NCBI GenBank assembly: GCA_949825065.1
Contig: OX463863.1
Span: forward strand, 18,771,240 to 18,835,239
Length of the DNA stretch: 64,000 nt
Reading direction: 5' to 3'
Source: Odontocerum albicorne
Taxonomy: Eukaryota > Arthropoda > Insecta > Trichoptera > Odontoceridae
Part shown: positions 34,032-63,105 of the stretch, one piece after another
Layout: the number at the start of each line of letters is the position of its first letter
How positions within the stretch are numbered: position 1 is the stretch's first letter
The notes under the pieces: model-generated
Told to the model about the DNA's origin: nothing
The model's database searches: none
Seen by the model: the letters and a program-made list of their open reading frames with translations, nothing else
Made by a program: the position numbers and the translations under genes

Positions 34032-34153
34032 ATGAATACATTCATACTGTTTCTGATAACTGCAGAACTTTCCTTCTCTCTGGCCAAACCCGCTCCAGTA
34101 TGTCCAGTAACCGCTTTCAATACGAGTGGAGAGATGCAAATCCCGCTTCTAAA
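34032..34153 (+). CDS. Fib-L: L-fibroin exon 1 (signal peptide)
   Basis: Forty codons plus two bases: the signal peptide, then KPAPVCPVTAFNTSGEMQIP and LL. The donor is CTAAA|GTATGT. The two leftover bases (AA) join A at 47480 to give Lys 41. Confidence 0.85.
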
Positions 34154-37100
34154 GTATGTACATATAATTTTTTTTATTCTTCTGTGTTTGGACATCAGAT
34201 GCTGTTCGTATTCTTCAATCAGATTACTATATTAGGTTATATATCTACTGTAACCCTCCACAATACCCATACAGTGGGCAGCCATCATGGCATATTAACT
34301 GTAGCCCTCCAGAATACCCATACAATGGGCAGCTATCATAACATCACCAGTGCGGAAGACCAGCATTTCGAACCCCGCGATGTGTTACTCCCCTCGAACG
34401 ACACAAGTATTTTTTCCACCTAGTATTCAGGAGAATAAGAATACATATGACTTCGGTCAAATATATTTATTTATACGAGATCCAGCAACGACGAATTCTC
34501 CAACGAGATCACATCATCTGGTGTTAGGCGATGGAGGTCCTGCACGCTTCCAGGAAACCCATAAGTGGGCAGCTATCATAGATGTGGTATATAATCCATA
34601 CATATGTAGACAGAAGACAGACCACGAGACTTTCTTATCTCGACAGAGCTCGTTAGCTTATTCTACGTCGTTATTTTGCGAAAAGCGTTTAAGTCTAAAT
34701 ATTGAGTTTTAAGATAAATGCAATTTAAGTTTCGGAGGGCGATGTTAAATCAAGTTATATGACTTTTTACCTTTCCATAACAGCGAAACCATATAACATC
34801 ACTTTTGGACATAAATGTTTTTTCCGTGTGTAGATATTTCAATTTAAATAAATAAATAATAAATAAATATTAGGTTTATTGACAGCAACATAGTATGTAC
34901 AAGATCACACCTGAATAACACTTCTAAAACACATAAATTGCAGACAATACATCAAACACAAAAGCTATCAAAAGGTCTGGGCTCATCTAATAGCATCCCC
35001 TCGGCCAAAATACACCCCACCAATATAGGGCGAACCCAGCCACGGGGACACCAGATGTTTTTCAGCCCACACCCTCAATTTTAAGTAAAATGGCATCAAA
35101 AAGTCATTTTAAGCAAACCCTTTTCGTAGAACAACGACGATATAATGGCCTACTTGTAAAGACGCCAGTATCCCAATCCAGAGTTACATATTCAAATCCT
35201 GCTGCAACACAGATTTAAAAAATATATATTCCAGTCTGGTATTCACTCAAGGCTTCTTTAACATATTTCTTGTTGGTTGAAAGAGATTGTAACATAGCAA
35301 TATTTATTTATTTTACACGTGAACAACAAGTAATTTAATTCGGGCACACAATTTTAATGGATCTGGGTTTGTTGCCTTTCATTTGTCGTGTCCCTAGTAA
35401 ACTAGGCTTTTGTCTGTATCTCACTGAGGACATATAGTATGAAAAAATTAATCGATACTTCTTTCCGATTTTTTGATTATATAAAACCCCGTTGCACATT
35501 CTCATCAAGCTGACAAACAGTGACACTCAATTACATATGTATACATCACGTGAAATCAAACCCCTCACACTTCATCACTCCAGACAGACCAAAACATTCA
35601 TCCCACAATATACCGCACATAATCATAAAATCAAAAATATATACTCGTAAATATAAAACAACAAAAAACACCACACTCAAGAGCTCACACAAACCTTTGC
35701 TACAAGTCATTCCTCTTGCAAGCCCAAGTACTCAAACTCCTGTCGCAATAACAACCACGCTCCGGTCGACGTGATTATCTCGCCAGAATGTATTTTATAT
35801 AGCGAAAGTGTAATGAAAAACAATAACTTCTACGACTTCCTACGTTTCTTTTAGAATTATTCACTTGATCTAACCATACTTTCCTTGGTCTTTCACACGC
35901 CTCACATTTGCACTGTATATATTTTGTTAGTTTTTTTTCATTCATTCGTTCCACATGCTCACATCTCAACTTACTTAAGTTCACGTTCATCCCTTATAAT
36001 TTAATTCCCTATTCTGTCATACATTGTCACTCCATGTATTCTTCTAAATGAACGCATTTCCAAAGAATTCTTCAGTCCCTTTGTTTTAGCCAGCAGTGGC
36101 TACTTTTAGTATTTTTCCCGTCTTCATTTCACTCCCATACAACAGCCTCGACGACCTCCGTGGCCTGGTGGTAAGACGCTTGTCTACCGATCCGGAGGTT
36201 GCGGGTTCGATCCCCGTTGGAATCCAGATTTTTTTAAATGGAATTCCAGTCTGGTTTTCACTTAGGCCCCATTAAAACATCTTTCTGGTTGGTTGGAAGA
36301 GATTGCCATATGGCACAAAACTCGCCAAGTGAAATTAAAAAAAACAAAGTTGGCACCAGAATACTATTATGAACTTATTCTTTACACTCAATGAGGCCTT
36401 AAGTAAAAACCAGACTGCAATCCTTTTATAGAAAAAATGTGTTCCAGCGGGATTTGAACTCGCAACCTCTGAGCTGGATAACAGGCGTCTTATCAACTAG
36501 GCCACGGAAGTCGTCATTATGCGTTCATATATCTTCCAATATGTACCATACATTCGTCTTTAGGTGTAGTGTTCATGTACCACCATAAATTTTGATAAGA
36601 CTTCTCAAAAAGGATTGTCTTCAAGGGTTCTTTATGTTAATTCTTTATAATAATTAATCTCTAAAGCTGCACATGCCACACATTTCACAAGAAACCTTTA
36701 TGTATGATATCTTTCAATATGTGATAGTAATACATTCGTCTTTAGGTGTAGTGTTCATGTACAACCATACATTTTGATAAGACTTCTCAAAAAGGGTTGC
36801 CTTTAATGGATCTCTAAAGCTGCACATGCCACACATTTCACAAGAACCCTTTATGTATGATATCTTTCAATATGTGATAGTAATACATTCGTCTTTAGGT
36901 GTAGTGTTCATGTACAACCATACATTTTGATAAGACTTCTCAAAAAGGATTGTCTTCAAGGGATCTCCAAAGCTGCACACGTCACCCATTTGACATGAAA
37001 CCTTTATGTATCTTCCAATATGTGATATTAATACATTCGGCTTTAGGTGTAGTGTTCATGTACCGCTATAAATTTTGATAAGACTTCTCAAAAAGGATTG

Positions 37101-40100
37101 CATTTGATTTGCGACATCCTTTTCCACTTTTTAATGAGATTTTCTTTACGACTTAATTTTTTTTTTTATATATGTGTATGACAAGACATTTAAGAAATAC
37201 TAATTACATTTAAATACATTTATTACATAACTAATGAAAGAACAACAGGTAATTTAATGTGGACACGCCATTTTAATGCATCTGGGTGTGTGGCTTTCAT
37301 TTGTCGTGTCCCCAGTAAACTAGACTTTTGCCTGTGACATATAACATGGTAACTGAGGACATATAACATGGAAAAATAAATTAATATTTCTCTCCGATTT
37401 TGCATACCACAATAAATAACTCGTTGCACATTCTCATCAACTGGACAAACAGTGACACTCAATAACATATGTACATAAATCACGCGAATCAAACTCCTCA
37501 CAGTTCATCACTCCAGATAGATAAAAAGGTCATCCCAACGACAACACACCACACACAAGAGTTCACATTTGCTATAATTTATTCCTCCTGTAAGCTCAAG
37601 TATTCAAACTGTTGTCGCAATAATAACCACGCTCCGATCCACTGCCTGAATTGTTTGACCTCTTTTGCCTTCATTGAATTCGGCAACCCATTGTATGTCA
37701 TGGGAATAATAATGAGAGATTAATTTATATAGCATCCGGAAATATAAAAAGAGAAACAATTAAAAACCAATAAATTCATCAATTTAAAATCATGCTAAAA
37801 GCATAATGACGACTTTCGTGGCCTAGTCGGTAAGACGCCTGTTATCCAACCCAGAGATTGCGAGTTTAAATCCCGCTGGAACACAATTGAAAAAAAAGGA
37901 TACCAGTCATTGTTTTCACTTAAGACCTCATTGAATGTTTCTGGTTGGTTGGAAGTAATTTTTACATGACAATAAGTCAGTCAGGTTGTATTATGTACAA
38001 CGAAAATGTATACCAGAATATATAACAGAAACAATAAATGCACAATGTTAAAAAAAGCATGGCGCTTCAGTTGATACAACACAGGAATATTCCGACAGGG
38101 ATTCACGACACAGGAATATTCTGACTGATATATACGACACAGGAATATTCCGACAGAGATACATGACACAGGAATATTTAATAAGAAACAAAACCCCAAC
38201 AACTAAACTTGTAAATGATTTTAAGAGAACAAATCTTTCAAGTTTTGCAAGCTTAATTGAAAAATATTGTTTTAGTGAATATCGAAAAGGTTTTGTTCCA
38301 TCGCGATAACGCTAGACCGCACACAGAACAGACAACACTACAAAAAATTAAATACTTTGATTGAGAGCTCCTACCTCATCCTTCTTACTCACCAGATGTT
38401 GCCCAAGTGACTTTAATTTATTTCTGGCGCTTTAGATTTTTTTGTGTGTGAAAATTTAGAGACATTGTAATTTGTTTAGTCAAACACTGTTTATTCTACT
38501 AAACATAACGTTATAACCCTACCGGTTTCAAGGTTTTCACCTCATCATCAGGGATCATATTCCATGCTATGCTATATTATGTCATATAACGTTAGGTTAC
38601 ACTACGTATCCCTCGCTATGCTACAATTATTTTATGTTAGGAGTCTTGTCTGTGCTGTCTCCTAACGATGAGGTGAAACCTTGAAACCGGTGGGATTATT
38701 CCGTTTTTTTAAGTTGAATAAACAATGTTTGACTAAACAAAGTACAAAAATACAATATTCCTAATATTTACTTAGATACAGCAATTTAAGTAAACCAGTG
38801 ACAAACATCAGAATTTCTGATAAAAGCTGTCTTGATTATGATCGAGTCTAATGTTATAATGCACCTATAGTTGTAGACTTTGACTAACATCAGAATTCTT
38901 GGAAAAATCTGTCTTGATTTTGATCGCGTCTAATGTTATAACGCACCTATGGTTACAGATTTTGGCAAGCATCAGAATTCCCGGAAACAACTGTCTTGAT
39001 TTTTATCGGGTCTAATATTAAAACGCATATATGGTTACAGACTTTGATTAACATCAGAATTCCCAAAAAAAATCTGTGTTGATCTTGATCGGGTCTAATG
39101 TTATAACGCACCTATGGTTGAAGACTTTGACAAACACGAGAATTCCCGGAAGAAGCGGTCTTGATTTTGGTCGGGTCTAATGTTATACCGCACCTATAGT
39201 TGCAGACTTTGACAAATATCGAAATTCCCGAAAAAAGCTGTCTTGATTCTGATCGGGTCTAATGTTATAACGCACATATGGTTGCAGAGTTTGATTAACA
39301 TCAGATTTCCTGAAAAAAGCTGTCTTGATTCTGATCGGGTCTAATGTTATAAATCACATATGGTTGCAGAGTTTGATTAACATTTGATTTTGATCGGGTC
39401 TAATGTTATACCGCACCTATAGTTGCAGACTTTGACAAATATCGAAATTCCCGAAAAAAGCTGTCTTGATTTTGATCGGGTCTAATGTTATAACGCACTT
39501 ATGGTTGCAGACTTTGGCAAGCCTCAGAGTTCCCGGTAAAAATTGTCTTGATTTTTATCGGGTCTAATGTTATAACGCACCTATGGTTGCAGACTTTGAC
39601 AAACATCAGAATTCTCGGAAAAAGCAGTCTTGATTTTTATCGGGTCTAATGTTATACGCACCTATGGTTGAAGACTTTGACAAACATCAGAATTCCTGGA
39701 AAAATCTGTCTTGATTCTGATCAGGTCTAATGTTATAATGCACCTATGGTTGCAGACTGACAAATATCGAAATTCCCGAAAAAAGCTGTCTTGATTCTGA
39801 TCGGGTCTTATGTTATAAAGCACATATGTTTGAAGAGTTTGATAAACATCAGAATTCCCGTAAAAAACTGTCTTGATTTTGATCGGGTCAAATGTTATAA
39901 CGCACTTATGGTTGCAGACTTTGGCAAGCATCAGAATTCCCGGAAAAAACTGTCCTGATTTTTATCGGGTCTAATGTTATAACGCACCTATGGTTGCAGA
40001 CTTTGACAAACATCAGAATTCCCGGAAAAAGCAGTCTTGATTTTTATCGGATCTAATGTTATAACGCACCTATGGTTGCAGACTTTGACAAATATCGAAA

Positions 40101-43100
40101 TTCCCGGAAAAAGCTGTCTTGATTCTGATTGGGTCTAATGTTGTAACGCACCTATGGTTGCAGGCTTTGACAAACATCAGTATCCCTGAAAAAAACTTGA
40201 TTAAGATCGAGTCTAATGATATAACGCACCTATGGCTGCAGACTTCGACAAACATCAAAATTCCTGGAAAAGCCGTCTTGATTTAGATCGGGTCTAATGT
40301 TATAACGCACTTATGGTTGCAGACTTCGACAAACATCAAAATTCCTGGAAAAGCTGTCTTGATTTTGATCGGGTCTAATGTTATAACGCACTTATGTATG
40401 CAGACTTCGACAAACATAAGAATTCCTGGAAAAAGCTGTATTGATTTTGATCGGGTCTAATGTTATAACGTACCTATGGTTGCAGACTTAAACAAACATC
40501 TGAATTCCTGGAAAAAGCAGTCTTGATTTTGATGGGGTCTAGTGTTATACCGCACCCATGGTTGCAGACTTTGACAAACATGAGAAATCCTAGAAGACTC
40601 TTAAATTAGATTGGGTCTAATGTTAAAACGCACCTATGGTTGCAGACTTTGGCAAACATCAGAATTCCCGGAAAAAGCTGTCTTGACTTTTATCGGGTCT
40701 AATGTTATAACGCACCTATGGTTGCAGACTTTGGCCAACATCAGAAACCCCAGAAAATACTGTCTTGATTTTTATCAGGACTAATGTTATAACGCACCTA
40801 TGGTTGCAGATTTCGACAAACATCAGAATTCCTGGGAAAAACTGTCTTGATTTTGATCGGGTCTAATGTTATAACGCACATATGGTTGCAGACTTTGGCA
40901 AACATCAGAATTTCCGGAAAAAGCAGTCTTGATTTTGATCGGGTCTAATTTTATACCGCACCTATAGTTGCAGACTTTGACAAATATCGAAATTCCCGAA
41001 CAAAGCTGTCTTGATTCTGATCGGGTCTAATGTTATAATGCACATATGGTTGCAGAGTTTGATAAACATCAGATTTCCCGAAAAAAGCTCTCTTGATTTT
41101 GATCGGGTCTAATGTTATAACGCACCTATGGTTGCAGACTTTGGCAAGCATCATAATTCCCGGTAAAAACTGTCTTGATTATTATCGGGTCTAATGTTAT
41201 AACGCACCTATGGTTCCAGACTTTGACAAACATCAGAATTCCCGGAAAAAGCAGTGTTGATTTTTATCTGGTCTAATTTTATACGCACCTACGGCTGCAG
41301 ACTTTGACAAACACGAAAATTTCCGGAAGAAGCGGTCTTGATTTGGATCGGGTCTAATGTTATAACGCACCTGTGGTTGCAGACTTTGACAAACATCAGA
41401 ATTCCTGGGAAAAAACTGTCTTGATTTTGATCGGGTCTAATGTTATAACGCACATATGGTTCCAGAGTTTGATTAACGTCAGAATTCCCGGAAAAAGCCG
41501 TTTTAATTTTGATCGGGTCTAATGTTATACCGCACTTATAGTTGCAGACTTTGACAAAAATCGAAATTCCCGAAAAAAACTGTCTTGATTCTGATCGGGT
41601 CTTATGTTATAAAGCACATATGGTTGCAGAGTTTCATTAACATCAGATTTCCCGAAAAAAGCTGTCTTGATTTTGATCGGGTCTAATGTTATAACGCACC
41701 TATGGTTGCAGACTTTGGCAAGCATCAGAATTATCGGTAAAAACTGTCTTGATTTTTATCGGGTCTAATGTAATAACGCACCTTTGGTTGCAGACTTTGA
41801 CAAACATCTGAATTTCTGGAAAACTCTGTCTTGATTTTGATCGGGTCTAATGTTATAACGCACCTATGGCTGCAGACTTTGACAAACACGAGAATTCCCG
41901 GAAGAAGCGGTCTTGATTTTGATCGGGTCTAATGTTGTAACGCACCTTTGATTGCAGACTTTGACAAATATCGAAATAACCGGAAAAAGTTGTCTTGATT
42001 CTGATTGGGTCTAATGTTATAACGCACCTATAGTTGCAGATTTTGACTAACATCAGAATTTCCGGTAAAAACTGTCTTGATTATTATCGGGTCTAATGTT
42101 ATAACGCACCTATGGTTCCAGACTTTGACAAACATCAGAATTCCCGGAAAAAGCAGTGTTGATTTAGATGGGATCTAATATTAAAACGCACATATGGTTG
42201 CACACTTTGATTTACATCAGAATTCCCGGAAAACGCTGATTCTGATTGGGTCTAATGTTATAACGCACCTTTTGTTGCAGACTTTGGCAAACATCAGAAT
42301 TCCCGGAAAAAACTGTCTTGATTTTGATCGGGTCTAATGCTTTAACGCACATATGGTTCCAGAGTTTGATTAACGTCAGAATTCCCGGAAAAAGCAGCCT
42401 CAATTTTGATTGGGTCTAATGTTATACCGCACCTATAGTTGCAGACTTTGACAAATATCGAAATTCCCAAAAAAAGCTGTTTTGATTCTGATCGGGTCTA
42501 ATGTTATAACGCACATATGGTTGCAGAGTTTGATTAACATCAGATTTCCCGAAAAAAGCTGTCTTGATTTTGATCGGGTCTAATGTTATAACGCACCTAT
42601 GGTTGCAGACTTTGGCAAGCATCAGAATTACCGGTAAAAACTGTCTTGATTTTTATCGGGTCTAATGTTATAACGCACCTATGGCTGCAGACTTTAACAA
42701 ACATCAGAATTCCTGGAATAAGCAGTCTTGATTTTGATCGGGTCTAGTGTTATAACGCACCTATGGCTGCAGACTTTGACATGCACGAAAATTCCCGGAA
42801 GAAGCGGTCTTGATTTTGATCGGGTCTAATGTTATAACGCACCTATGGTTGCAGACTTTGGCAAACATCAGAAATCCCGGAAAATACTGTCTTGATTTTA
42901 ATTGGGTCTAATGTTATAAGCACCTTTGGATGCAGACTTTGACAAACATTCTAATTCCGGGAAAAATCTGTCTTGATTTTGATCGGGTCTAATGTTATAA
43001 CGCACCTATGGTTGCAGACATTGACAAACACGAGAATTCCCGGAAGAAGCGGTCTTGACTTTGATCGGGTCTAATGTTGTAACGCACCTATGGTTGCAGA

Positions 43101-46100
43101 CTTTGACAAATATCGAAATAACCGGAAAAAGCTGTCTTGATTCTGATTGGGTCTAATGGTATAACGCACCTATAGTTGCAGATTTTGACTAACATCATAA
43201 ATTCCGGAAAACGTTGTCTTGATTATGTTCGGGTCTAATGTTATAACGCACCTATCATTGCAGACTTTGACAAACATCAGAATTCCCGGAAAAAAACTGT
43301 CTATATTTTGATGGGATCTAATATTTAAACGCACATATGGTTGCATACTTTGATTAACATCAGAATTCCCGGAAAACGCTGATTCTGATTGGGTCTAATG
43401 TTATAACGCACCTTTTGTTGCAGACTTTGGCAAACATCAGAATTCCCGGAAAAAACTGTCTTGATTTTTATCGGGTCTAATGTTATAACGCACCTACGGT
43501 TGCAGACTTCGACAAACATCAGAATTCCTGGAAAAAAACTGTCTTTATTTTAATCGGGTCTAATGTAATAACGCACATTTGGTTGCAGACTTTGACAAAC
43601 ATCAGAATTTCAGGAAAAATCTGTCTTGATTTTAATCGGGTCTAATGTTGTAACACACTTATGGCTGCAGACTTTGACAAACACGAGAATTCCCGGAGGA
43701 CGCGGTCTTGATTTTGATCGGGTCTTATGTTATAACGCACCTGTGGTTGCAGACTTAGAAAAATATCGAAATTCCCGAAAAAAGCTGTCTTGATTCTGAT
43801 TGGGTCTATTTTTATATAGCACATATGGTTGCAGAGTTTAATTAACATCAAATTTCCCGGAAAAAGCTATCTTAATTTTGATCGGGTCTAATGTTATAAC
43901 GCACGTATGGTTGCAGACTTTGGCAAGCATCAGAATTCACGGTAAAAACTGTCTTGATTTTGATCGGGTCTAAAGTTATAATGCACCAATGGTTGCAGAC
44001 TTTGACAAACATCAGAATTCCTGGAATAAGCAGTCTTGATTTTGATTGGGGCTAGTGTTATAACGCACCTTTGGTTGCAGACTTTGACAAACATCAGAAT
44101 TCCTGGAAAATGCAGTCTTGATTTTGATCGGGTCTAGTGTTATAACGCACCTATGGTTGCAGACTTTGACAAACATGAGAATTCCTGGAAGACTCTTAAA
44201 ATTAGATCGGGTCTTATGTTATAACGCACCTATGGTTGCAGACTTTGGTAAACATCAGAATTCCCGGAAAAAACTGTCTTGATTTTTATCGGGTCAAATG
44301 TTATACACAGACTTTGACAAACATCACAATTCTCAGAAAAAGCTGTCTTGATTTTGATTGGGTCTAGTGTTATAACGCACCTATGGTTGCAGACTTTGAC
44401 AAACATGGAAATTCCCTTAAAAATATGTCTTGATTCTGATCGGATCTAATGTAATAACGCACCTATGGTTGCAGGCTTTGACAAACAGGGAAATTCCCTT
44501 AAAAATATGTCTTGATTCTGATCGGATCTAATGTAATAACGCACCGTTGGTTGCAGGCTTTGACAAACACCAAAATTCCCGGAGAATACGGTATCGATTT
44601 TGATCGGGTCTTATGTTAATACGCACCTACGGTTGCAGATTTTGAAAAACATCAGAATCCCTGGAAAAGACTTGATTAAGATCGGGTCTAATTTTTTAAC
44701 GCACCTATGGTTGCAATATTCGACAAACATCAGAATTCCTTGAAAAAGCTGTCTTGATTTTGATCGGGATCTAATATTAAAACGCACATATGGTTGCACA
44801 CTTTGATTAACATCAGAATTCCCGGAAAACGCTGATTCTGATTGGGTCTAATGTTATAACGCACCTTTTGTTGCAGACTTTGGCAAACATCAGAATTCCC
44901 GGAAAAAACTCTCTTGATTTTTATCAGGTCTAATGTTATAACGCACCTACGGTTGCAGACTTCGACAAACATCAGAATTCCTGGAAAAAACTGTCTTGAT
45001 TTTAATCGGGTCTAATGTAATAACGCACCTTTGTTTGCAGACTTTGACAAACATCAGAATTTCTGGAAAAATCTGTCTTGATTTTGATCGGGTCTAATGT
45101 TAAAACGCACCTATGGTTGCAGACTTCGACAAACATCAGAATCCCTAGAAAAGACTTATTTTAAAACGCAACTGTGGTTGTAGATTTTGCACTCATAAAT
45201 CAGAGCAATCATGCATATAAATACTATACAATGTATGCACAGGCGGTTTTTCATTTCGTTTGATGAGTGATACGTAACGTCTCAATAGCATTGTTGCATT
45301 TTATTGTCGAAACAATAATTTATACGCTATGTCCCTGTTGTACAATGCAGAGAAAACAGACTTCCATTCAATTCTTCCATTATTGTATAATACCCCTAAC
45401 TGTCCCGCCACCCTCTCTTATCTCGCTGAAAATTTTAAGCGTCTTTCCTATCATGGGCATGCGATACGCACAGACAGAGATTGTGTATTGGCATTCCCAG
45501 TTCGCCACTCTTATTTTTTGGCATCGTCCTTAATTGTCCGTGCAGTGATACTCTGGAACCAGTTACAAACCAATGTGATACTCCCTCCTTCCTTGGCATG
45601 CTTTAAGAAGCGACTGAAAAAATCTCTTAATTTCTAGTCAGTAAAATAACGTGTTTCATTCCTGATTTATCTCACCTCTCCTCTCCCCCACCCCTTCCTT
45701 TCCCTTTGATTGATGATATCTCACTTTTACTTTTAAAATGTAAAGTCCATAAATTTCATGAATATGAATGATCTTTTGAATGTTTTTTTGTGACCATGTA
45801 ACTTGCTTTATTTGCTTTCTCTAGTTGCTTGGAAGAGATTGCCGCCTGGCAATAAACCTGCCGGATTGTTAATACAATGAAGTGTTAGATAAATAAATAT
45901 CATTTATACATTTTACATTTGATACAATTACATCTTTACTATGCTATGTTATGTCACGATACAATAGGTTATGTTACATAACATTGCGATACATATTCCT
46001 CACTAAGCTATGTAACGTCACGTTACAATAGGTTACGTTACATAGCATTGCGTTACATATTCTTCACTAAACTATGTTGTGTCCCGCTACAATAGATTAT

Positions 46101-49100
46101 GTTATATAACATTGAAGAGCATATTCCTCACTATGCTATGTTATGTCACGTTACAATAGATAACGATACATAAGATTGTGTTGCATATTCTTCACTATGC
46201 TATGTTATGTCACGCTGTAATATGTTACGATACATAACATTGTGTTGCATATTCTTCACTATGCTATGTTATGTCACGCTATAATATGTTACGATACATA
46301 ACATTGTGTTGCATATTCTTCACTATGCTTTGTTATGTCACGTTATAATAGGTTACGATACATAACATTGTGTTGCATATTCTTCACTATGCTATGTTAT
46401 GTCACGTTACAATAGGTTACGATACATAAGATTGTGTTGCATATTCTTCACTATGCTATGTTATGTCACGCTATAATATGTTACGATACATAACATTGTG
46501 TTGCATATTCTTCACTATGCTTTGTTATGTCACGTTATAATAGGTTACGATACATAACATTGTGTTGCATATTCTTCACTATGCTATGTTATGTCACGTT
46601 ACAATAGGTTACGATACATAAGATTGTGTTGTATATTCTTCACTATGCTATGTTATGTCACGCTATAATATGTTACGATACATAACATTGTGTTGCATAT
46701 TCTTCACTATGCTATGTTATGTCACGTTATAATAGGTTACGATACATAACATTGTGTTGCATATTCTTCACTATGCTATGTTATGTCACGTTACAATAGG
46801 TTACGTAACATAACATTGTGTTACATATTCCTCACTATGCTATGTTATGTCACGTTACAATAGGTTACGATACATAGCATTGCGTTACATATTCCTCACT
46901 ATGCTGTGTTATATCACGTTACAATAGGTAACGTTACATTACATTGCGTTACACATTCCTCACTAAGCTATGTTATGTCACGCTACAATAGGTTATGTAA
47001 CATAACATTGAACAGTATATTATGTACTATGCTATGTCACGTTATGGTAGGTTACGTTGCGTAACATTGAGTTTCATATTGCTCGCTACGCTATGTAATG
47101 CCATTACGTTACATAGCATTGTGTTGTAATTTACATACCATTTTATGTCACGTCACTTTAGATTACGTTACAGGACATTGCATTACACTATACTATATTA
47201 TGTCACATAACTTTACGTTAAATTACATACTCGTTCGTTATGCTATTTAATGTCACGTTACATAACATTGTCTTGCACATTACATATTATGCTATGTTAT
47301 CCCAAGTTACGGTAGGTTACATAAAATAAGATTGCGTTCCATATTCCACGTTGTGCTATGTCATGTCACGTAATGGTAGGTTACATAACATATCCCTCGT
47401 TATGCTATGTTATGTTATATTGCGTATCTCATGATACGCAGTATTATGTTACGTAACGTAATTTTGAATATATTTCCAGAGATCTCCTCACCCAGCTCGC
47501 AACCCTAGTGCCCACGAAGAACAGCCTCCAGAAGTGCTTGAAGGCGGCTCTGTTGACCAGCATTAACGGCACCTCGGAGATAGAACAGGACTTGGCGGAT
47601 GCACTCATCATCATCTCGCATACAAGTCAGATCTTCGACATGAAACCGAGTGCTTGCCCATTCGCTGAGGTGAATATCCATTTATATTCCTTCATGTCTA
47701 CTATCCAACACTTCCGCCATTGTAACACAATCCCTTTCACGTTTGTAACACGATCACTTCCACATTGTAACACTATTACTTCCACATTTATAACACTATC
47801 ACTTCCACATTTGTAACACGATCACTTTCACGTTTGAAACACGATCACTTCCACATTCGTAACACTATTACTTCTACATTTATAACACGATCCCTTTCAC
47901 GTTTATAACAATTTATAAAACTATCACTTCCACAATTGTAACACGATCACTTCCACATTCGTAACACTATTACTTCCACATTTATAACACTATCACTTCC
48001 ACATTTGTAACACGATCACTTCCACATTTATTACACTATCACTCCGACATTTATAACACGATCACTCTCACGTTTGTAAGACGATCACTTCCACAGTTAT
48101 AACATTATCACTTTCACGTTTGTAACACGATCACTTCCACATTCGTAACACTATTACTGCCACATTTATAACACTATTACTTCCACATTTGTAACACGAT
48201 CACTTCTACGTTTGTACCACTATTACTTCCACATTTATAACACTATCACTTCCACGTTTGCAACACGAACACTTCCACGTTTGTACCACTATTACTTCCA
48301 CGTTTATAACACTATCACTTCCACGTTTGTAACACGATCACTTCCACATTTGTAACACGATCACTTGCACATTTGTAACACGATCACAATTCGTAACACT
48401 ATTACTTCCACATTTATATCACTATCACTTCCATGTTTGTAACACGATCACTTCCACGTTTGTAACACGATCAATTTCACATTCGCAACACTATTACTTC
48501 TACATTTATAACAATTTATAACACTATCACTTTCACAATTGTAACATAATCCGTCTTGATTATATGTTTGAAGATCCGCTTCTCAAAAACTTCGATTCGT
48601 TGTGATGTCTGTTTCAGTGTCCACGCCTCCATCCCATAAAGGAGAATTGAGAAGATATGACATTGATCAATATACATTCTAAATTCCAAACTCGCGTTTT
48701 GTTTGTTTTCTTTCTTCTCTTCTTTATCAAGTGCTCAATACTCAGTGTCGAGTTATTCTTCTATGTCTCAAACTGGGCGCACCCCCCCACCCCCCCTCTC
48801 CATTCCTCCCGATCAATGGCTTGATGAATATTTCTAGCTCTTTATCACAGAGGATCCTGTTAGCTTCATTTATTTGATTCGTTCACCTTATTTTTGCTCG
48901 CCTTTCCTTAACTGTCCCCGCAATCCGACTTTCATATTTTTTGTAGTAACACGTCCAAAGTACGTAAGGTAGTGGTTCATAACCGGTCAGGTGCCTTAAG
49001 CGAGTTTACTCGCTCTCTGTTGCTGTGTCCGTGGGGCCGGACAAACAAAATTAACGAGGTAAATCGCTCAACATTATGCCTGTTTCTAGCCAATGTTTAG

Positions 49101-52100
49101 TACTAATTCGAATAATCTAAAATATGGGACATATAGAGACATCTATTGAGATGATGAATAAATAGTATAATATTCCAGTTTACAGAGATTTACCTAAAAG
49201 CTTGGCATGACAGTGGACATGTGTCTCTAATACAGGGTTGTCAGTGCGAGCGTTTTACTTATTTAACCGTTGAAATTTGAAATGATTTTATAGTTACATT
49301 ATTTACTTTCCGTGCGTTATTAAAATAAGTAATTCTTAATTTAATTCTATCAAATATTTGATGAATGTACGTTTCCGTATTTCCTGCGATAAGCTGTGAC
49401 AACTCTGACATTGTGTTTTTCTGAGTGAACGCCGGCACAAACGACACATATTGTACATACCATATTTGGTCTTACAAGTCTTCGTAATATCCTTTGAATA
49501 TGTATACAAAAAAGATAATTCTATTAAGTTTTATTTTTGCTAAAAAAATTACGACCCTCCGGGATCAGCCATACCTTGCGGCACTTAAAGGGTTAAGGAG
49601 TTATCGATCGAGATGTTTTGGTGCTAACTTTGATGTGTGGGAGTGAAATGTAGATGTGAAAAAAGACTAAGAGGAACTGAATAAATGCCTTAGAAATGCG
49701 TGCACTTAGAAGAATACATGGGGTAACAATGTATGACAGAATACGGAATGAAGTTATTAGGGATGAATATGTACTTAAGCCTGATGTGTTGAGTAAGGTG
49801 GAGGAGGTCGCGCTGAGATGGTTTGGGTATGTAGAGCAAAGAAAAGAAAAAAAGACTAACAAAATAAATGTGTCGACGCTTTTCAAACCCAGGTATGTCC
49901 ACGCAAATTCAAACCGAGCAAAACGATATTTTGTTCCTGATTACAGAAAACTATATAAAAATGACGTGTATTTTTAAGAATTGCTTTACATTGTGTTTTC
50001 AAAAAAAAAACGATTCAGAACAAGAGGAGAGGCATGCTGACAAAGGGAGTCTGCCTGCTGCACGACAATGCCAGACCACACACGGCCAATGCCACGAAGG
50101 AACTGCTCGCCTCGTTTAAATGGGATGTCCTGAACCATCCCGCGCATTCCCCTGACCTAGCACCTTCAGATTACTATCTCTTTACCTCCCTGAAGCTGCA
50201 CATGGGTGGAAAAAGGTTTTCAACCGACGAGGAGGTAAAGGAGAAGGTGGAGAAGTGGACGGAGGGGTTGGATATGCCTCGTATGTTATGTCACGCTACA
50301 ATAGATTATGTTACATAACACGAACTATACTAATTACGTACATTTAATTTAAGGTATAAAAAAAATCGATAATCCAATGCAGACTAACGTAGAGATTTTT
50401 GACGAACGTCACCAAATATTATTTGATTTTAACAAACTGCCACATTTTTGCTAATTTGTAACATGATGTATTAATTTGTCATTACTGTTAGTTTCATGTA
50501 ATGTATTTACCTAAATAACTTGCTATTTATTAGAATCGAGGCTTATATAATATTAAAGTTGATAAAATAATTAAAATTACTAAACGTCGTTACAAGGTTG
50601 TATTGGGGCAAATTTATGAACTGTCACAGGAACCATGCTACAATTTCTCAAGTATAGTAATTTTTTTAATTTTTTTTATCGAATTTGCCCGAATTTCTCT
50701 TGTTACACAAAGAGGGTCTGTTTCTAGCGTTGGCTTTTTCGTTAGGAAGAATATCAGCCAGGACTCTTCTCATACTGCTAGACGGTGCCGAGACTATATC
50801 CACGGTGTCACTCAGTTGGTTCAATATCTCTATATCACGCGTGACTATAGCTGAGTGTTTAGCCATGATATTCCTTCTGTAAGTTGCTATGTATTATAGA
50901 ACAGAGGGTGATACCTAGCCTTGCACGGCTATATTTATTGGGGACATATAAACTTAATGCTTCTAGTGTCGCGGGATAGTTAAAGCAACCTTTAGTAGGA
51001 ATATCGCAACGGATTCTTGCCTTCTTGTTTCGAGGCTTCTATAGTTACACACCGTGAGAAGTTCGACATGGTGAGCATATTTTGGGTAATCCCCCTTTGT
51101 TCTGTACCATAGATATCTGAGGAGTTTTTTTTGTATTTGTTCTATATTGTTTTTATATTTGAGCTGATGAGGAGCCCAAACTGTAGATGCATATTCTAAT
51201 TTGGTTCTAATTAGATAATTATACAAGTTTCATATAAATGTAACACATAATTATTAAATATAGCTTTTTTATAAATTCGGCTTTCGCCCGGCACTATTTT
51301 CGTGAATCTCGAATGCTTGACCCGTGACCACAATCATGTTGAGATCCTCTGGACTAAACGCATTAGCCCTGTTATCAATAGAATAAAAAACGACAGTGAA
51401 TATGGACTTGAATATCATCGGAAATGGATTTGCGGAGAATAAAGCTCAACTTACACTTTAGTTTTTAGTTGCAAGGTTTGTTGTGTGGTGAGAAATACTT
51501 CGTTGTAAGATTTATTGTATGGTGAGAAATACTTCGTTGTAAGGTTTGTTATGTGGAGAGAAATACTTCGTTTTAAGGTGTGTTATGTGGTGAGAAATAC
51601 TTTGTTGTAAGTTTTGTTGTGTGGGGAGAAATACTTTGAATGAATCGAAAAGGATATCTCGAGAGGTGCCATACATACAGTGCTATGGATAATACTAGAG
51701 ATCTAATCAATCAAAAATTTAAAATTTTCAGGCTATCAACGGAACAGTGGCTGCACAGCAGATGAGGAATAGGACTTTGCTACTGAATACACTCAAATTC
51801 GGCCAAGTATCGAATTTCAATTTCTTCGATGATGTCGTAGCGTACAACGCCAAGAAATCTTCTGGATGTGTAAAAGTGTGCGAAACACCTAAGGTAAGCT
51901 TTTATAATCTTACATGAAATAACCTTAATACTTCTGGAGGCTTAACATTGTGTGAAACACTTAACTCTTTCACTGCTGATACAAAATGCATGACAACCGA
52001 TCGATCGGGGTTCAATATATTTGAATAATAAAAAAACAAGTTGCGACCCGTGAAATATTCACGGAAGTAAAACAAATTCTACATTTATGAAAATACATAT

Positions 52101-61100: not shown

Positions 61101-62850
61101 TGTTCGATTCAATAAAATTATTCTTTATCCTGAAAATAACATTTCTTCAGTATTCGTTATGATGAAATTGGACCTATATTTGCAGACAGTATCCGTTTGA
61201 TTTAATATGTGTTATTTGTATATTTGTTCACAGCTTCCTTAATTTATTTGTACATTTGTTCACAGCTTTCCAAATTTATTTGTTTATTTGTTCAGAGCTT
61301 TTCAAATGTATTTGTTCACAGCTTCCCAAATTAATTTGAATATTTGTTCACAGCTTCCCAAATTTACTTGCTTCAACAATGGTTTCGTGTATGATATTGA
61401 GGCGGCGTGGGACCTCTACGGGGACGGCATAAACAAAGACACCAGATGCTTAGTGAGGTCCCTGTATGACTCGAAAGACTTCACAGACAACTACTTGGCG
61501 GCCATAGTCACAAGGGCAATCTTACCTTTCAGCCGACTTCTCGACAAAGGATTCAACGTTGATGTTGGACTTGAGGTATGGTTATTTTTCATTATTTTAG
61601 CCTTAATATTTGTGCAAATTTAAATTACAATAATTATAACTTAACTTTACCTTACATAATGGTTAAAAAACGAATAATATCACAAAACTGATAAAAAATC
61701 CGGATAACTTATAAAAATCAAATAACCCCACATAAACGATAATAAACTGGATAGTCTTGTATATTTGATAAAAACTAAATAACCTCACATAAACGATAAT
61801 ATCCTTTCTTGAATATTCGAAAATACTATAGTTTCACTTTGTGGTGCCATATTTTATGTAACAGGAAAAATTAGTAAATAAAAGACTTATTTTATATTTT
61901 TGTGTTCACCACTGGTTTATTTTTGGGCTTACTACTGGTTTCGAAGACAAACGTCTTCATCGTCAGGTGAAGATAAACTTAATTGCTAAAAATACATTTC
62001 CTGTACAAGTGTAAATAATAGAAGAGGAATGAGGTAGGGGGAGAGAAGTGGGGAGATATGTGATTCAATGGTAAATGGGGCAGGGAAAATGAAAATGAAT
62101 CTTTCGGGCAGGCCAGGGTCTGGATATCCAAGGGGGTGGATTTTAAATAGGAAACATATTAAGCAGAGGGCTATTATTAAAATTGGTCTGGTTGTTGATG
62201 ATATTTAGACTTAATTTTACCCCTACCTCATTCCTCTTATTAATTAGCTTAGGACTTGTAATTAGTACTTCTCACTCGCACTTGTAAATAAGTATATTAG
62301 TACTAAGCATTAGTATATCTTAGTACTAATATGCTTGTTGTCACTAAGCAGCTTAGTACAAACTAAAAGTACTAATGACAAATACTAAGCTCGTGTAAAC
62401 ATGGCATTACATGTGGATACAAATGCGAGTGAGAAGTACTAAGGACAAGTACTTAGCTCGTGTAAACATGGCAATAATATGACAATATTTATGACTCATA
62501 TATTTTCTTACCAAATATGTTTGACTGAAGATATGCAGATTCGGGGAAGTACTGAATCTAATGGCCGCACCCACTGCTTTCCTATCCTTGGACTCGCTAG
62601 TTTTTTTTTAATTATTTAATCCTGTTAATAATAGTATTATAGAATCCCAACGCTCTAGAAATATATTTAATAAATTGCCTTGTTCCAGTTACTTTCTTTC
62701 GTTAAGAAAGATCCGATTCCCAAACAATGCTGCTGCGAGAGACTTGACAGGATTGAAAAGCTGAAACAAGCCAGTATCACAGATGGATTGAGGTTATACA
62801 AAATGCTAGAGACGGTCTACGCCTACCCGCCTGACTACAAGATCTGCTAA
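34032..62850 (+). CDS. Fib-L: Fibroin light chain (L-fibroin), complete five-exon gene
   Basis: Exons: 34032-34153, 47480-47669, 51732-51893, 61354-61575, 62689-62850; 858 nt, 285 residues. Introns are GT-AG and the phases agree (2, then 0, 0, 0). Residues 1-18 form a signal peptide (MNTFILFLITAELSFSLA). Exon 4 carries the family core CFNNGFVYDIEAAWD...DTRCLVRSLYDS, which parallels GGGRIYDFEAAWD...EEYCIVKRLYNS of silkworm L-fibroin. Cysteines 100, 164 and 190 lie where the silkworm precursor has 101, 160 and 190; residue 190 is the one known there to bond the heavy chain. The protein is secreted in silk glands and lets the heavy chain leave the ER. Unlike silkworm L-fibroin (three Cys), this one has 11 cysteines, including a CCC at 246-248 and a terminal Cys 285, plus three N-x-T sites (70, 107, 117). 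The start at 34032 is preferred to an in-frame ATG at 33999, which would place a charged stretch before the signal peptide. Confidence 0.9.
34230..34460. repeat. Short duplication and family C fragment in intron 1
   Basis: Two copies of a unit of about 60 bp (CTGTAACCCTCCACAATACC and CTGTAGCCCTCCAGAATACC, each followed by CATACA-TGGGCAGC-ATCAT) are followed by the family C block also seen at 29700-29830. A third GTGGGCAGCTATCAT occurs at 34566. Confidence 0.6.
34461..34860. other. Intron 1 spacer
   Basis: No gene or clear element end. AT-rich, ending in AAATAAATAAATAATAAATA next to a family A copy. Confidence 0.35.
34860..35075 (-). repeat. Dispersed repeat family A, longest copy
   Basis: On the minus strand the family motifs run to TTGCTGTCAATAAACCTAAT and an ATTT-type tail, which looks like a polyadenylated retroelement 3' end. 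AGCTATCAAAAGGTCTGGGC and CACCAGATGTTTTTCAGCCC mark the other side. Confidence 0.65.
35133..35300 (+). mobile_element. tRNA-derived SINE, diverged
   Basis: The head ATAATGGCCTACTTGTAAAG and a degraded B box (ATATTCAAATCCTGC) are followed by ATTCCAGTCTGGTATTCACT and the tail GTTGGTTGAAAGAGATTG. Same family as at 36150, more mutated. Confidence 0.7.
35310..35775. repeat. Dispersed repeat family B, copy 1
   Basis: Collinear with 37205-37640: AACAACAAGTAATTTAATTC, CATTTGTCGTGTCCCTAGTA, TTGCACATTCTCATCAAGCT and GACAAACAGTGACACTCAAT. A part is also at 24940-25015. No terminal repeats or coding motifs are recognised. Confidence 0.7.
35790..35990 (-). pseudogene. RTE-like LINE tail fragment
   Basis: The minus strand reads KLRCEHVERMNEKKLTKYIQ, then RPRKVWLDQV. 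It is the GHVERMxExRLTKxIY...RPRKTWLDQV tail of the same LINE family as 49615-49935. Confidence 0.65.
36150..36335 (+). mobile_element. tRNA-derived SINE, best-preserved copy
   Basis: The head is ACGACCTCCGTGGCCTGGTG then GTAAGACGC (A box TGGCCTGGTGG). The B box is in GCGGGTTCGATCCCCGTTGG. The body has AATTCCAGTCTGGTTTTCAC, and the tail is TTGGTTGGAAGAGATTGCCA. The promoter boxes are near consensus and properly spaced for RNA polymerase III. Confidence 0.88.
36390..36515 (-). mobile_element. tRNA-derived SINE, 3'-truncated, inverted beside the previous
   Basis: The minus strand starts at GACGACTTCCGTGGCCTAGT (36515), with TTGCGAGTTCAAATCCCGCT as B box and a GCAGTCTGGTTTTTACTTAA end. The tail is missing. 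It faces the SINE at 36150-36335 and forms a tail-to-tail inverted pair. Confidence 0.82.
36530..37110. repeat. Tandem repeat of about 150-180 bp, four copies
   Basis: The landmark TTTAGGTGTAGTGTTCATGT occurs near 36560, 36742, 36895 and 37043, each followed by TTTTGATAAGACTTCTCAAA. The units also share GCTGCACATGCCACACATTT. A diverged piece lies at 60945-61000. Confidence 0.88.
37205..37640. repeat. Dispersed repeat family B, copy 2
   Basis: Same order of motifs as 35310-35775, with an internal insertion of about 20 bp (GTGACATATAACATGG). It is a separate copy of the same unknown element. Confidence 0.7.
37808..38012 (+). mobile_element. tRNA-derived SINE
   Basis: The head is GACGACTTTCGTGGCCTAGT then CGGTAAGACGCC. 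The B box is weakened (GCGAGTTTAAATCCCGCTGG). The body is TACCAGTCATTGTTTTCACT and the tail is TTGGTTGGAAGTAATTTTTA, ending in GTTGTATTATGTACAACG. Confidence 0.83.
38070..38182. repeat. Short minisatellite of about 31 bp, four copies
   Basis: Units built on ACACAGGAATATTCCGACAG, each followed by a GATTCACG-type spacer. Confidence 0.8.
38286..38440 (+). pseudogene. mariner transposase scrap
   Basis: It reads VLFHRDNARPHTEQTT, LQKIKYFD and LPHPSYSPDVA. It covers the second catalytic aspartate (HRDNARPHT) and the HPSYSPD block before the third. No ends are left. It matches none of the three larger mariners closely. Confidence 0.8.
38455..38757. mobile_element. Inverted-repeat element with hammerhead-like motifs, copy 1
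   Basis: The outer arms (ATTTGTTTAGTCAAACACTG and its inverse near 38725-38750) and inner arms (ACCGGTTTCAAGGTTTTCAC near 38523 and GTGAAACCTTGAAACCGGTG near 38672) are inverted. The minus strand of the left arm reads CTGATGATGAGG, a short loop, then CCTTGAAACCGG. This has the CUGANGA...GAAAC core and stem II of a hammerhead ribozyme. The right arm has CTAACGA instead, so its core is damaged. Such motifs are known from Penelope-like retroelements; no PLE coding sequence is present. Confidence 0.6.
38790..45175. repeat. 82-bp satellite, about 6.4 kb, in intron 1
   Basis: Nearly 80 units around 82 bp (GATCGGGTCTAATGTTATAA, CGCACCTATGGTTGCAGACT, TTGACAAACATCAGAATTCC, CGGAAAAAGCTGTCTTGATT). Monomers differ by up to a fifth and some are cut short. 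Multi-unit blocks recur: one marked GGATCTAATATT with ACGCTGATTCTGATT begins near 42171, 43314 and 44767. Every minus-strand open frame here is a by-product. Confidence 0.95.
45286..45900 (+). mobile_element. Jockey/CR1-like LINE 3' end
   Basis: An open frame (45329-45637) encodes LLYNTPNCPATLSYLAENFK, RTDRDCVLAFPVRHS, LIVRAVILWNQLQTN and CFKKRLKKSLNF, then stops. The VRLWNxLP...F..RLK ending is typical of Jockey/CR1-type reverse transcriptases. The 3' UTR has GCTTGGAAGAGATTGCCGCC then TGGCAATAAACCTGCCGGAT and ends in AT-rich repeats. The 5' side is truncated, as usual for LINEs. Confidence 0.82.
45950..47440. repeat. 64-bp satellite in intron 1, unrelated to the one at 11.7 kb
   Basis: Unit ACATAACATTGTGTTGCATA, TTCTTCACTATGCTATGTTA, TGTCACGTTATAATAGGTTA and CGAT. 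TTGCATATTC starts at 46181 and 46245, a 64-bp step. It becomes irregular from 46900 towards exon 2, ending about 40 bp before the acceptor. A scrap is found at 50280-50322. Confidence 0.93.
47480..47669 (+). CDS. Fib-L: L-fibroin exon 2
   Basis: The acceptor is ATATATTTCCAG|AGATCTC. It encodes DLLTQLATLVPTKN to SACPFAE (residues 42-104), with Cys 60 and Cys 100 and an NGT site. The donor is GCTGAG|GTGAAT. The frame stays open into intron 2, but the phase match with exons 1 and 3 fixes the ends. Confidence 0.9.
47690..48545. repeat. 24-bp minisatellite at the start of intron 2
   Basis: About 35 imperfect copies of GTAACACGATCACTTCCACA then TTTA/TTTG, beginning some 20 bp after the exon 2 donor. 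Confidence 0.92.
48545..48680 (-). pseudogene. RTE-like LINE fragment
   Basis: The minus strand reads SILLYGMEAWTLKQTSQRIE, then VFEKRIFKHIIKTDY, the ILMYGCETWTL...RIEAFEMW region of non-LTR reverse transcriptases. Confidence 0.65.
48681..49600. other. Intron 2 spacer
   Basis: No gene is recognised. A C-rich run at 48783-48798 and a small open frame at 49259-49447 (minus) show no family features. Confidence 0.35.
49600..49935 (+). pseudogene. RTE-like LINE fragment
   Basis: It reads VLTLMCGSEM, then ALEMRALRRIHGVTMYDRIR, NEVIRDEYVLK and ALRWFGYVEQRKEKKTNKIN. It is the LRRxxGVTxxDRIRNExIR...LRWFGHVERM tail of the LINE family also seen at 20576 and 35790. Confidence 0.8.
50015..50275 (+). pseudogene. 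mariner transposase fragment (family of mariner 3)
   Basis: It reads KRRGMLTKGVCLLHDNARPH, then ASFKWDVLNHPAHSPDLAPS and DYYLFTSLKLHMGGKRFSTD, ending near VEKW. Almost identical in sequence to the C-terminal part of the mariner at 52516-53439 but on the other strand. Both catalytic aspartates of this region remain; no ends. Confidence 0.88.
50380..50560 (+). mobile_element. Helitron fragment
   Basis: TGCTAATTTGTAACATGATG, TAATTTGTCATTACTGTTAG and TACCTAAATAACTTGCTATT match, inverted, the 27400-27490 part of Helitron copy 2. No ends are preserved. A scrap of the 64-bp intron 1 satellite lies just before it (50280-50322). Confidence 0.65.
50561..50955. other. Unassigned intron 2 segment
   Basis: Overlapping open frames of 60-80 codons exist on both strands around 50603-50882, but none shows a motif I recognise. 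Confidence 0.3.
50960..51240 (-). pseudogene. Jockey/CR1-like LINE reverse transcriptase fragment
   Basis: The minus-strand frame of 87 codons reads YNYLIRTKLEYASTVWAPHQ, then NNIEQIQKKLLRYLWYRTKG and LLTVCNYRSLETRRQE. This is the LVRSxLEYASxVWxP...IExIQxxFLR...L..LxxRR segment just after the RT domain. It is open but truncated on both sides. Confidence 0.82.
51465..51640. repeat. 34-bp minisatellite, five copies, in intron 2
   Basis: Units of TTGTAAGGTTTGTTGTGTGG then TGAGAAATACTTCG, ending about 90 bp before exon 3. Confidence 0.88.
51732..51893 (+). CDS. Fib-L: L-fibroin exon 3
   Basis: The acceptor is AAAATTTTCAG|GCTATC. It encodes AINGTVAAQQMRNRT to SSGCVKVCETPK (residues 105-158). AING follows the Cys of exon 2 as VINS does in silkworm L-fibroin. 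The donor is CCTAAG|GTAAGC, a strong consensus, and its surroundings are duplicated across the piggyBac at 51965-58552. Confidence 0.9.
51876..51960 (+). repeat. Duplicated exon 3 donor region, left copy
   Basis: The segment from GTGTGCGAAACACCTAAG|GTAAGC to CTTAACATT is followed by a second unit start GTGTGAAACAC at 51950. The rest of that second unit (GGTAGGCTTTATAATC to CTTAACGTT) is at 58557-58612, beyond the piggyBac. It therefore was a tandem repeat of about 73 bp before the insertion. Confidence 0.85.
52516..53439 (-). mobile_element. mariner element 3, internally deleted (924 bp), inside hAT 3
   Basis: TA at 52514-52515 and 53440-53441 flanks ends CTAGGTAAGTCCAGAAAGTA and, inverted, CGAGGCGTATCCTGAAAGTA, which match at most positions. 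It is about 370 bp shorter than a full mariner. Confidence 0.9.
52615..53236 (-). pseudogene. mariner transposase, core deleted
   Basis: The N-terminal frame (53236-53033) has an HTH piece (RTSVYKWCREFKNGRTSVHD) and RSGRPSIV. After a break near 53065 the other frame (53067-52615) starts at MFWDCQAIILIEYMPQGE and contains VHDNARPHTANATKE and HSPDLAPSDYYLF, ending CIERNGDYVEK. The segment with the first catalytic aspartate is missing, so it is inactive. Confidence 0.9.
53610..55412 (-). pseudogene. hAT transposase of element 3, several frameshifts
   Basis: It starts MSGPSKRQRTNNFNTDWEES at 55412, with a BED finger (CVCLLC) broken by a shift in an A run near 55290. Then come FIDGELFKELFLTGADCLFD, LQFDESTDISDTAQLAVMVR (first Asp), a shift, ITTDGAPAMVGKNKGFIALC (second Asp), HCIIHQEALC and EVRWLSKGKVLTRF. 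A gap near 54278-54104 has another lesion. The last part to about 53610 has degraded dimerisation motifs. It resembles the other two hAT proteins in layout, not in detail. Confidence 0.9.
56419..58065 (-). pseudogene. piggyBac transposase of element 2, frameshifted
   Basis: It begins with an acidic N-terminus (IEDDSFSDVSDEEFTIIEDD) in a shifted frame. The fragment 57869-57225 has TRWKNVTKDEMRVWLGLLLH and LSIDESF (first catalytic Asp). After a shift, 57343-56927 has RQYIKGKNAKYGIKLYML and FMDNFYNS (second). After another, 57003-56650 has NYNNHMGGIDYHDQML (third). A further frame, 56601-56419, gives the C-terminal Cys-rich ribbon (CRQCW...CSDCP...C...C). All key residues survive but at least three indels break the frame. 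Confidence 0.92.
58553..58626 (+). repeat. Duplicated exon 3 donor region, right part
   Basis: TTAAGGTAGGCTTTATAATC to AACGTT, followed by a third unit start GTGCGAAACACTTA. It carries a cryptic donor AAG|GTAGGC at 58557. About 85 percent identical by eye to 51890-51950. Confidence 0.85.
58645..58858. mobile_element. Inverted-repeat element with hammerhead-like motifs, copy 2
   Basis: Same family as 38455-38757: outer arms ATTTGTTTAATCAAACACTG and its inverse, inner ACCGGTTTCAAGGTTTTCAT. The minus strand of the left arm reads CTGATGATGAGA, a loop, then CCTTGAAACCGG. The plus strand of the right arm reads CTGATGACGAGGTG, then CACCCTGAAACAGG. Both cores CUGAUGA and GAAAC are kept. Confidence 0.62.
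58935..59015 (+). repeat. Dispersed repeat family A, short copy
   Basis: ACACATCTGATGTCCTTGCG and CTCGCCCTATATTGGGGGGG fit the family A 3' part. Confidence 0.6.
59140..59300 (+). pseudogene. RTE-like LINE scrap
   Basis: It reads VEEFCYLGSIFSDDGRIMKD, then VSIGKKSQW, the FxYLGSxISxDG...RIxxxKxAF segment that follows the RT core. Confidence 0.7.
59405..60205 (-). pseudogene. RTE-like LINE, C-terminal half of reverse transcriptase
   Basis: The minus strand reads IRYTDDTVILADSIDNRQTL (YADD as YTDD), then AGVRLGLKMNVSKTMLMVFG, ERVETFKYLGSNLVEDLDPE and a stop near 59950. It continues VWSVLLHGVESWTLKVGSMN, AFEMWMHRRMLRIPWTDMVS, IRKVSYLGHALRGEKYKLLH, QGKIEGRRGVGRRQISWLRN and ends near 59405 in GAAGAAGAAC. 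Only one or two lesions in about 260 codons; the best-kept LINE in intron 3. Confidence 0.9.
60290..60915 (+). pseudogene. RTE-like LINE fragment, tail of another family
   Basis: It reads VVTDCIYLGSSITNSGGCEA, EVERRTGMA, KIWKSRTITIMTKMRLVKSL, FTIFVYGAET and IDAFEMWC, with scattered stops. After a short T-rich insertion at 60590 it continues LEDLRITD, then DKSQMHWTDQVSDATALRAA and DRWRGVVRSYHGSHG, and ends GATGATGATTGA near 60915. Confidence 0.8.
60920..61215. other. Intron 3 spacer
   Basis: It holds a diverged piece of the intron 1 tandem repeat at 60945-61000 (TGTAGTGTTCATATACCATC) and AT-rich sequence. Confidence 0.45.
61216..61357 (+). repeat. Fib-L: Ladder of repeated 3' splice-site-like units before exon 4
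   Basis: Five imperfect tandem units of about 25-32 bp, each ending like TTTGTTCACAGCTTCC. AG positions are 61233, 61265, 61295/61297, 61321 and 61353. Only the last opens into an uninterrupted frame. Acceptors at 61233, 61265 and 61321 lead to stops within 3 to about 25 codons. Confidence 0.85.
61354..61575 (+). CDS. Fib-L: L-fibroin exon 4 (family core)
   Basis: The acceptor is TTTGTTCACAG|CTTCCC, the last of a ladder of similar sites. It encodes LPKFTCFNNGFVYDIEAAWD to LDKGFNVDVGLE (residues 159-232), including the heavy-chain-linking Cys 190. The donor is CTTGAG|GTATGG. This exon gives the family identification. Confidence 0.93.
61880..61990 (-). mobile_element. Hammerhead-like remnant in intron 4
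   Basis: The minus strand reads CACCTGACGATGAAGACGTT, then TGTCTTCGAAACCAG: CUGACGA, a six-base stem GAAGAC/GUCUUC, and GAAAC. It is a different family from the two inverted elements (stem sequence differs) but has the same core. Confidence 0.5.
62245..62475. mobile_element. Palindromic MITE in intron 4
   Basis: The left end AGCTTAGGACTTGTAATTAG then TACTTCTCACTCGCA and the inverted right end (TGCGAGTGAGAAGTACTAAG then GACAAGTACTTAGCT) form arms of about 40 bp. The interior has an AAGCTCGTGTAAACATGGCA duplicate near 62388 and 62454. No target duplication is settled. Confidence 0.65.
62689..62850 (+). CDS. Fib-L: L-fibroin exon 5 (Cys-rich C-terminus)
   Basis: The acceptor is CCTTGTTCCAG|TTACTT. 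It encodes LLSFVKKDPIPKQCCCERLD to AYPPDYKIC and stops at TAA 62848-62850. The CCC cluster and the last Cys have no counterpart I recall in silkworm L-fibroin. Confidence 0.88.
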   Translation, partial: LLSFVKKDPIPKQCCCERLDRIEKLKQASITDGLRLYKMLETVYAYPPDYKIC

Positions 62851-63099: not shown

Positions 63100-63105
63100 A
63101 ATAAA
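63100..63105 (+). terminator. Fib-L: Poly(A) signal of L-fibroin
   Basis: AATAAA, 250 bp after the stop and 8 bp after the stem-loop. It gives a 3' UTR of about 270 bases. Other AATAAA-like motifs further down are possible alternatives. Confidence 0.55.

Follow-up and report, generated by a model that had tools for sequence, protein, structure and literature searches.

The light chain of fibroin (L-fibroin, FibL) is described in the excerpts available from PMC9504780 as a silk protein, found only in Lepidoptera and Trichoptera and forming a family unto itself, and the Arg in its H5-H6 connector is presented there as invariant. The silkworm Bombyx protein has three cysteines, of which those at 101 and 160 form an internal disulfide and that at 190 bonds the heavy chain (H-fibroin). 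The L-fibroin fold has ten helices. For caddisflies, the excerpts of PMC11092239 and PMC9432349 describe FibL as one gene with six exons and a product of 23-24 kDa, that of Limnephilus being about 35% identical to Bombyx; a single FibL gene is counted in the part of the Limnephilus lunatus silk study at hand (PMC11092239). The synteny given for FibL in the accessible text of PMC11906653 is with DRC4 and HDAC11.

Several further silk-related proteins bear on the locus studied here. Limnephilus silk is reported to contain LAN32, LA27 and LS29, proteins of 27-31 kDa in which Leu is the commonest residue, whose function is given as unknown and whose genes form a triplet on the chromosome also bearing FibL (PMC11092239, in excerpt); LAN32 was first named in Plectrocnemia, where its gene has seven exons (PMC9432349, PMC11092239, in excerpt). 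In the moth Neomicropteryx cornuta the excerpted PMC11906653 reports fibX, a distant fibL-like gene, 25-28% identical to FibL proteins. Our search of the open-licence literature turned up no caddisfly for which a multigene family of L-fibroins had been reported.

We analysed a 64,000-nt stretch of DNA from the caddisfly Odontocerum albicorne (the window; C32, positions 18771240-18835239), in which a sequence-only reading had proposed a complete five-exon L-fibroin gene spread over repeats and had taken it for the silk light-chain gene of a moth or caddisfly. The gene is complete, running from Met to a TAA stop: its five exons of 122, 190, 162, 222 and 162 nt lie where that reading had placed them and join in frame with matching phases, giving 858 nt that encode 285 residues and the stop, and all four introns are GT-AG. 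The coding share, put at about 3 percent by the same reading, is 2.98% of the 28,819-bp span, and the N-terminus, inspected by eye, resembles the signal peptide it had claimed. The features of the gene in window coordinates are as follows.

33936..33941, plus strand: candidate TATAAA box 5' of exon 1, a pattern match only
34032..34153, plus strand: exon 1, 122 nt with two codon bases left over, carrying Met and the start of the mature chain; the hydrophobic signal-peptide-like stretch MNTFILFLITAELSFSLA (plus strand) was recognised in it by eye, and the exon is also present in tandem copy 2
34154..47479, plus strand: intron 1, 13.3 kb, GT-AG
38799-45142: 82-bp satellite array in intron 1 (TRF)
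45933-47010: 64-bp array in intron 1 (TRF)
47480..47669, plus strand: exon 2, ending in DMKPSACPFAE, with Cys100 aligned to Bombyx Cys101 of the internal disulfide
51732..51893, plus strand: exon 3, AINGTVAAQQ...SSGCVKVCETPK, with Lys152 opposite the Arg of the Bombyx connector
61354..61575, plus strand: exon 4, the conserved core, with Cys164 (Bombyx Cys160), Trp178 and Cys190 (Bombyx Cys190, the H-chain bond)
62689..62850, plus strand: exon 5, the C-terminal part, with CCC at residues 246-248 and a terminal Cys285
62848-62850, plus strand: TAA stop at the end of exon 5
63100..63105, plus strand: candidate AATAAA polyadenylation signal, a pattern match only

The gene thus differs from the described caddisfly FibL in having five exons rather than six and in belonging to a tandem pair (see below) rather than being single, and the mature chain, taken without the first 18 residues, is 29.7 kDa rather than 23-24 kDa. 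Its commonest residues are L (12.0%), K (8.2%) and A (7.9%), and the protein has 11 cysteines as against three in Bombyx. We also considered the C30 'C-rich' class of silk proteins and rejected it, the excerpted description giving 11.0-11.7% Cys for that class versus 11/267 in the window protein.

Judged by profile search and alignment, the window protein is an L-fibroin homologue. L-fibroin (PF05849) was the sole Pfam family found at E<=10 with the joined protein (E=4e-4, 20.4 bits), and exon 4, which had been singled out earlier as the place where an L-fibroin match should be seen, gave one weakly by itself (E=4.3e-4, 20.3 bits); these scores, and the 18.3 bits of copy 2, do not reach the gathering score of 27 bits. 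Alignment to Bombyx FibL, which itself scores 329 bits on PF05849, yielded a score of 114, whereas none of 2000 shuffles exceeded 63 (mean 31.1, sd 4.6), with 29.5% identity over 139 aligned columns. All three silkworm cysteines are aligned: Cys100 and Cys164 provide both positions of the internal disulfide, and Cys190 sits within DTRCLVRSLYDS, after YDIEAAWD, in a core that aligns as YDxEAAWD...C.V..LY.S. Trp178 stands opposite the invariant Trp of L-fibroin. The Cys noted earlier at 190 is therefore the aligned counterpart of the silkworm residue, and the identical number is, on this alignment, a coincidence of numbering. The invariant connector Arg is replaced by Lys152; we identified it, in our own reading of the PMC9504780 text, as the sole Arg of that Bombyx stretch. 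A PDB search with the joined protein gave a best E of 0.11, which is at chance level.

An intact second gene with five complete exons and Cys190 lies within 50 kb past the end of the window, on the same assembly sequence (C32).

76730-76851, 82082-82271, 89417-89578, 92760-92981, 95732-95893 (window coordinates): exons of copy 2

Its protein is 89% identical to that of the window gene. The tandem copy with the same exons, the score to Bombyx FibL and L-fibroin as the sole Pfam family together make the gene more than a chance assembly of open frames. The exons of the two copies are identical at 813 of 858 nt with no gaps (153 of 162 in exon 5), versus 1677 of 1936 identical positions and 23 gap runs in the 200-bp flanks, a comparison that partly spans stretches with no apparent homology left between the copies. 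From this difference in gaps the reading frame of the pair seems to be under constraint; a frame free of stops is by itself weak evidence, with a probability by chance of 0.20 in simulation. Among the 45 exon differences 39 are nonsynonymous (no-selection simulation: mean 32.3, 5-95% 27-37), with dN 0.061 and dS 0.032 (NG86), and exon 4 differs at only 2 of its 222 nt. Either the two proteins are diverging in the parts encoded by the other exons, or gene conversion homogenised exon 4; the nonsynonymous excess together with a near-identical exon 4 could reflect either diversifying selection or gene conversion.

Searching the Odontocerum genome with the window protein returned 35 matches at E<=10, on C32, C37, C24, C25, C10, C2, C8 and C21. 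The closest relatives after copy 2 are on C37, whose exon-4 matches show 38-44% identity (E 1.3e-17 to 5e-10), followed by the seven C24 matches in which exon 4 was read (E 1.9e-4 to 0.0045) and those on C10 and C2 (0.10 and 0.23). The exon-4 set that we examined comprises 18 sequences (two on C32, five on C37, seven on C24, two on C25 and one each on C10 and C2); two C24 matches, three C37 matches to exons 3 and 5, and those on C8 and C21 were left out of it. The Cys equivalent to Bombyx 160 and the Trp are present in all 18, and the Cys equivalent to Bombyx 101 in each of seven exon-2 sequences, which makes it likely, on these shared residues, that the C24, C10 and C2 group belongs to the family. 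By these criteria the family numbers about eighteen genes, the window gene and its tandem copy among them. Cys190 is confined to the window pair (2/18); the other 16 have Q (7), L (3), D (2), T, Y, E or N (1 each) at its position, and four residues N-terminal of it a different Cys is found in all nine sequences from C24, C10 and C2.

A Pfam comparison covering ten of the 18 exons gave L-fibroin scores for exon 4 of 42.5 bits for the minus-strand gene on C25 (C25 minus), 20.3 for the window gene, 19.8 for C37:10.41, 14.8 for C37:20.577 and 13.7 for C37:20.555; exon 4 of C37:0.06, C25 plus, C24, C10 and C2 had no L-fibroin match to PF05849. Exons 2-4 of C25 plus, when joined, scored 26.1 bits. 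In pairwise comparison with the window protein C25 plus (58.9 bits) scores above Bombyx FibL (48.5) and C25 minus (28.1). The exon-4 tree (73 columns) sets the window pair beside Bombyx FibL and C25 minus, outside the other paralogues (94/95, drawn open); an AU test did not reject a grouping of the pair with the C37 genes (p 0.29), and the program issued a warning of long branches meeting.

The gene in this genome that looks most like an orthologue of FibL, on profile score and tree position, is C25 minus.

G000:C25, about 12238.2-12243.4 kb, minus strand: exons 2-5 in the layout of the window gene

Its joined exons 2-5 give the best profile match found in the genome (70 bits to PF05849), and it groups with Bombyx FibL at 99/99 in the exon-4 tree with the Cys column left out, both being long branches about which the program warns. 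It differs from the window gene in having Asp at the Cys190 position and GC, not GT, directly 3' of exon 2, on account of which the gene may be defective or spliced poorly; no exon 1 was found for it. Genome-wide, PF05849 at E<=10 returned two matches, C25 minus (40.6 bits) and one on C9, which we rejected as a classical FibL exon and take to be due to chance, as it lies in an A+T-rich frame with reverse-transcriptase-like frames nearby (by eye). The corresponding search with Bombyx FibL returned four, led by copy 2 (27.6 bits) and the window gene (27.0), which are 38% identical to it over exon 4, and followed by C25 minus (20.7) and C37:10.41 (20.4). Neither search at E<=10 found another gene with all three cysteines. 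Both searches treated each exon separately, after a pre-filter that let through two candidates for PF05849 and four for Bombyx FibL; since the former missed the window's own exon, the search was not exhaustive. The assembly searched (1.287 Gb, contig N50 0.4 Mb) has 1241 contigs versus the 1267 scaffolds of the genome note, in the part of that note available. Given the narrow filter and this difference in sequence number, the searched assembly or the list of matches may simply lack a classical FibL.

Since it has a tandem copy and the family counts about eighteen genes, the window gene is probably not the classical light chain but a diverged light-chain relative. The reading we prefer, with a probability of roughly 0.58, is that of a working gene for a secreted, Cys-rich protein of the L-fibroin kind, a diverged light-chain paralogue probably of the LAN32/LA27/LS29 class. 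Size (27-32 kDa in that class), Leu as the commonest residue, secretion and clustering, compared by description only, lead us to infer this membership, with the class itself then being a branch of L-fibroin; the Plectrocnemia LAN32 gene has seven exons and the window gene five. Counting against the preferred reading are that the link to the class is drawn from size, composition and secretion, that the Pfam score lies below the cut-off and that the exon-4 tree places the pair with Bombyx FibL and C25 minus. As a distant fibL-like gene the window gene also resembles fibX, from which it differs in that fibX has six exons, is from a moth and is reported as one gene in the excerpted PMC11906653, again by description only. 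As a diverged light-chain paralogue the window protein would be made in the silk gland and would adopt an L-fibroin-like fold around the Cys100-Cys164 disulfide and a buried Trp178; Cys190 would be free on the surface to form a disulfide with the C-terminus of H-fibroin or with a different silk protein, and the eight other cysteines may add cross-links.

It is possible, if doubtful, that the window gene and its tandem copy instead encode the light chain actually used in the silk of this species, which would be joined to H-fibroin at Cys190 and be required for H-fibroin to be secreted. That the pair alone among the 18 loci has the third of the aligned L-fibroin cysteines, and hence all three, and is the best Bombyx FibL match in the genome searched favours this, and we grade it as high as we do mainly because neither the profile nor Bombyx FibL brought out another three-cysteine gene. 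Against it stand the weak match to PF05849 (20.4 bits versus 329 for Bombyx and 70 for C25 minus), the five exons, 29.7 kDa and 11 cysteines set against the six-exon, 23-24-kDa FibL of the excerpted PMC11092239 and PMC9432349, the 29.5% identity to Bombyx FibL versus about 35% for Limnephilus, the Lys in place of the connector Arg, and the narrow filter behind which a classical FibL may have escaped. The sequence-only reading was right that the gene is complete and of the L-fibroin kind, with a cysteine matching silkworm Cys190, and its moth or caddisfly is a caddisfly; its designation as the silk light chain is not supported for a gene that has a tandem copy and belongs to a family where 16 of 18 members lack Cys190, with a size and exon number unlike those of FibL and with C25 minus at 70 bits. 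A variant that we regard as rather unlikely has the classical light chain decayed, as C25 minus, and the window pair, having kept or regained Cys190, replacing it as the covalent partner of H-fibroin; if true, a silk subunit would have been supplanted by its own paralogue. An excess of amino-acid-changing differences and many clustered copies are usual for secreted families with roles in the gut, saliva proper or a reproductive or body fluid. The many clustered copies here and the 39 of 45 nonsynonymous differences would fit such a role outside silk for a secreted family with the L-fibroin fold, in which Cys190, seen in only 2 of 18 loci, would be coincidental; we consider this unlikely, L-fibroin being described only in Lepidoptera and Trichoptera and as a silk protein (PMC9504780, in excerpt). 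Scarcely credible is a decaying duplicate without function: the dN above dS and the 0.20 chance of a frame without stops would allow it, but splice sites and frames are all intact in both copies and no gap interrupts their 858 nt, as against the 23 gap runs of the flanks.

An expanded L-fibroin-like family in one caddisfly could explain the origin of some orphan silk proteins. Its pattern of residues suggests that the H-chain bond is lost sooner than the internal disulfide and the Trp of the fold. The family also offers a natural set for testing the need for Cys190 in underwater silk.

The description of the gene as spread over repeats was borne out in part by TRF arrays, which make up about 32% of its span, with transposon fragments adding further. 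We ascribe no role to the satellite arrays and transposon remnants that make up the long introns. Other satellite arrays found by TRF in the window, at 11767-17062, 1083-2556 and 18121-18942, have units of 128, 36 and 104 bp, respectively; the 36-bp satellite leaves an open frame of 360 codons that is a repeat. Transposon-related sequences include a Mariner-type transposase in a long open frame at 7171-8268 (PF01359, PF17906), fragments of relatives at 22717-23121 and 52618-53076, a hAT dimerisation region (PF05699) at 3007-4659 and a piggyBac-type DDE_Tnp_1_7 (PF13843) at 57228-57878. An Rfam scan of the whole window had no matches at the gathering cut-off.

At the exon-4 acceptor, the splice site and the first exon bases (CACAGCTTCCCAAAT) are tandemly repeated in the region 61212-61375, with two exact occurrences of CACAGCTTCCCAAAT at 61317 and 61349; in copy 2, CACAGCTTCCCA occurs five times. 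These repeats would provide a chance for alternative acceptors. Just 3' of the stop codon, a near-perfect long inverted repeat (GTGTTACCCTTCAAGAGTGTTTTTAAG and its complement, about 63018-63091, by eye) likely falls in the 3' untranslated region. Elsewhere in the assembly, short COX1-like nuclear pieces on C9, C43, C21 and C28, three of the four with an internal TGA, look like nuclear copies of mitochondrial DNA, and the mitochondrial contig, read from ARAGORN in mitochondrial mode, has the usual insect gene order.
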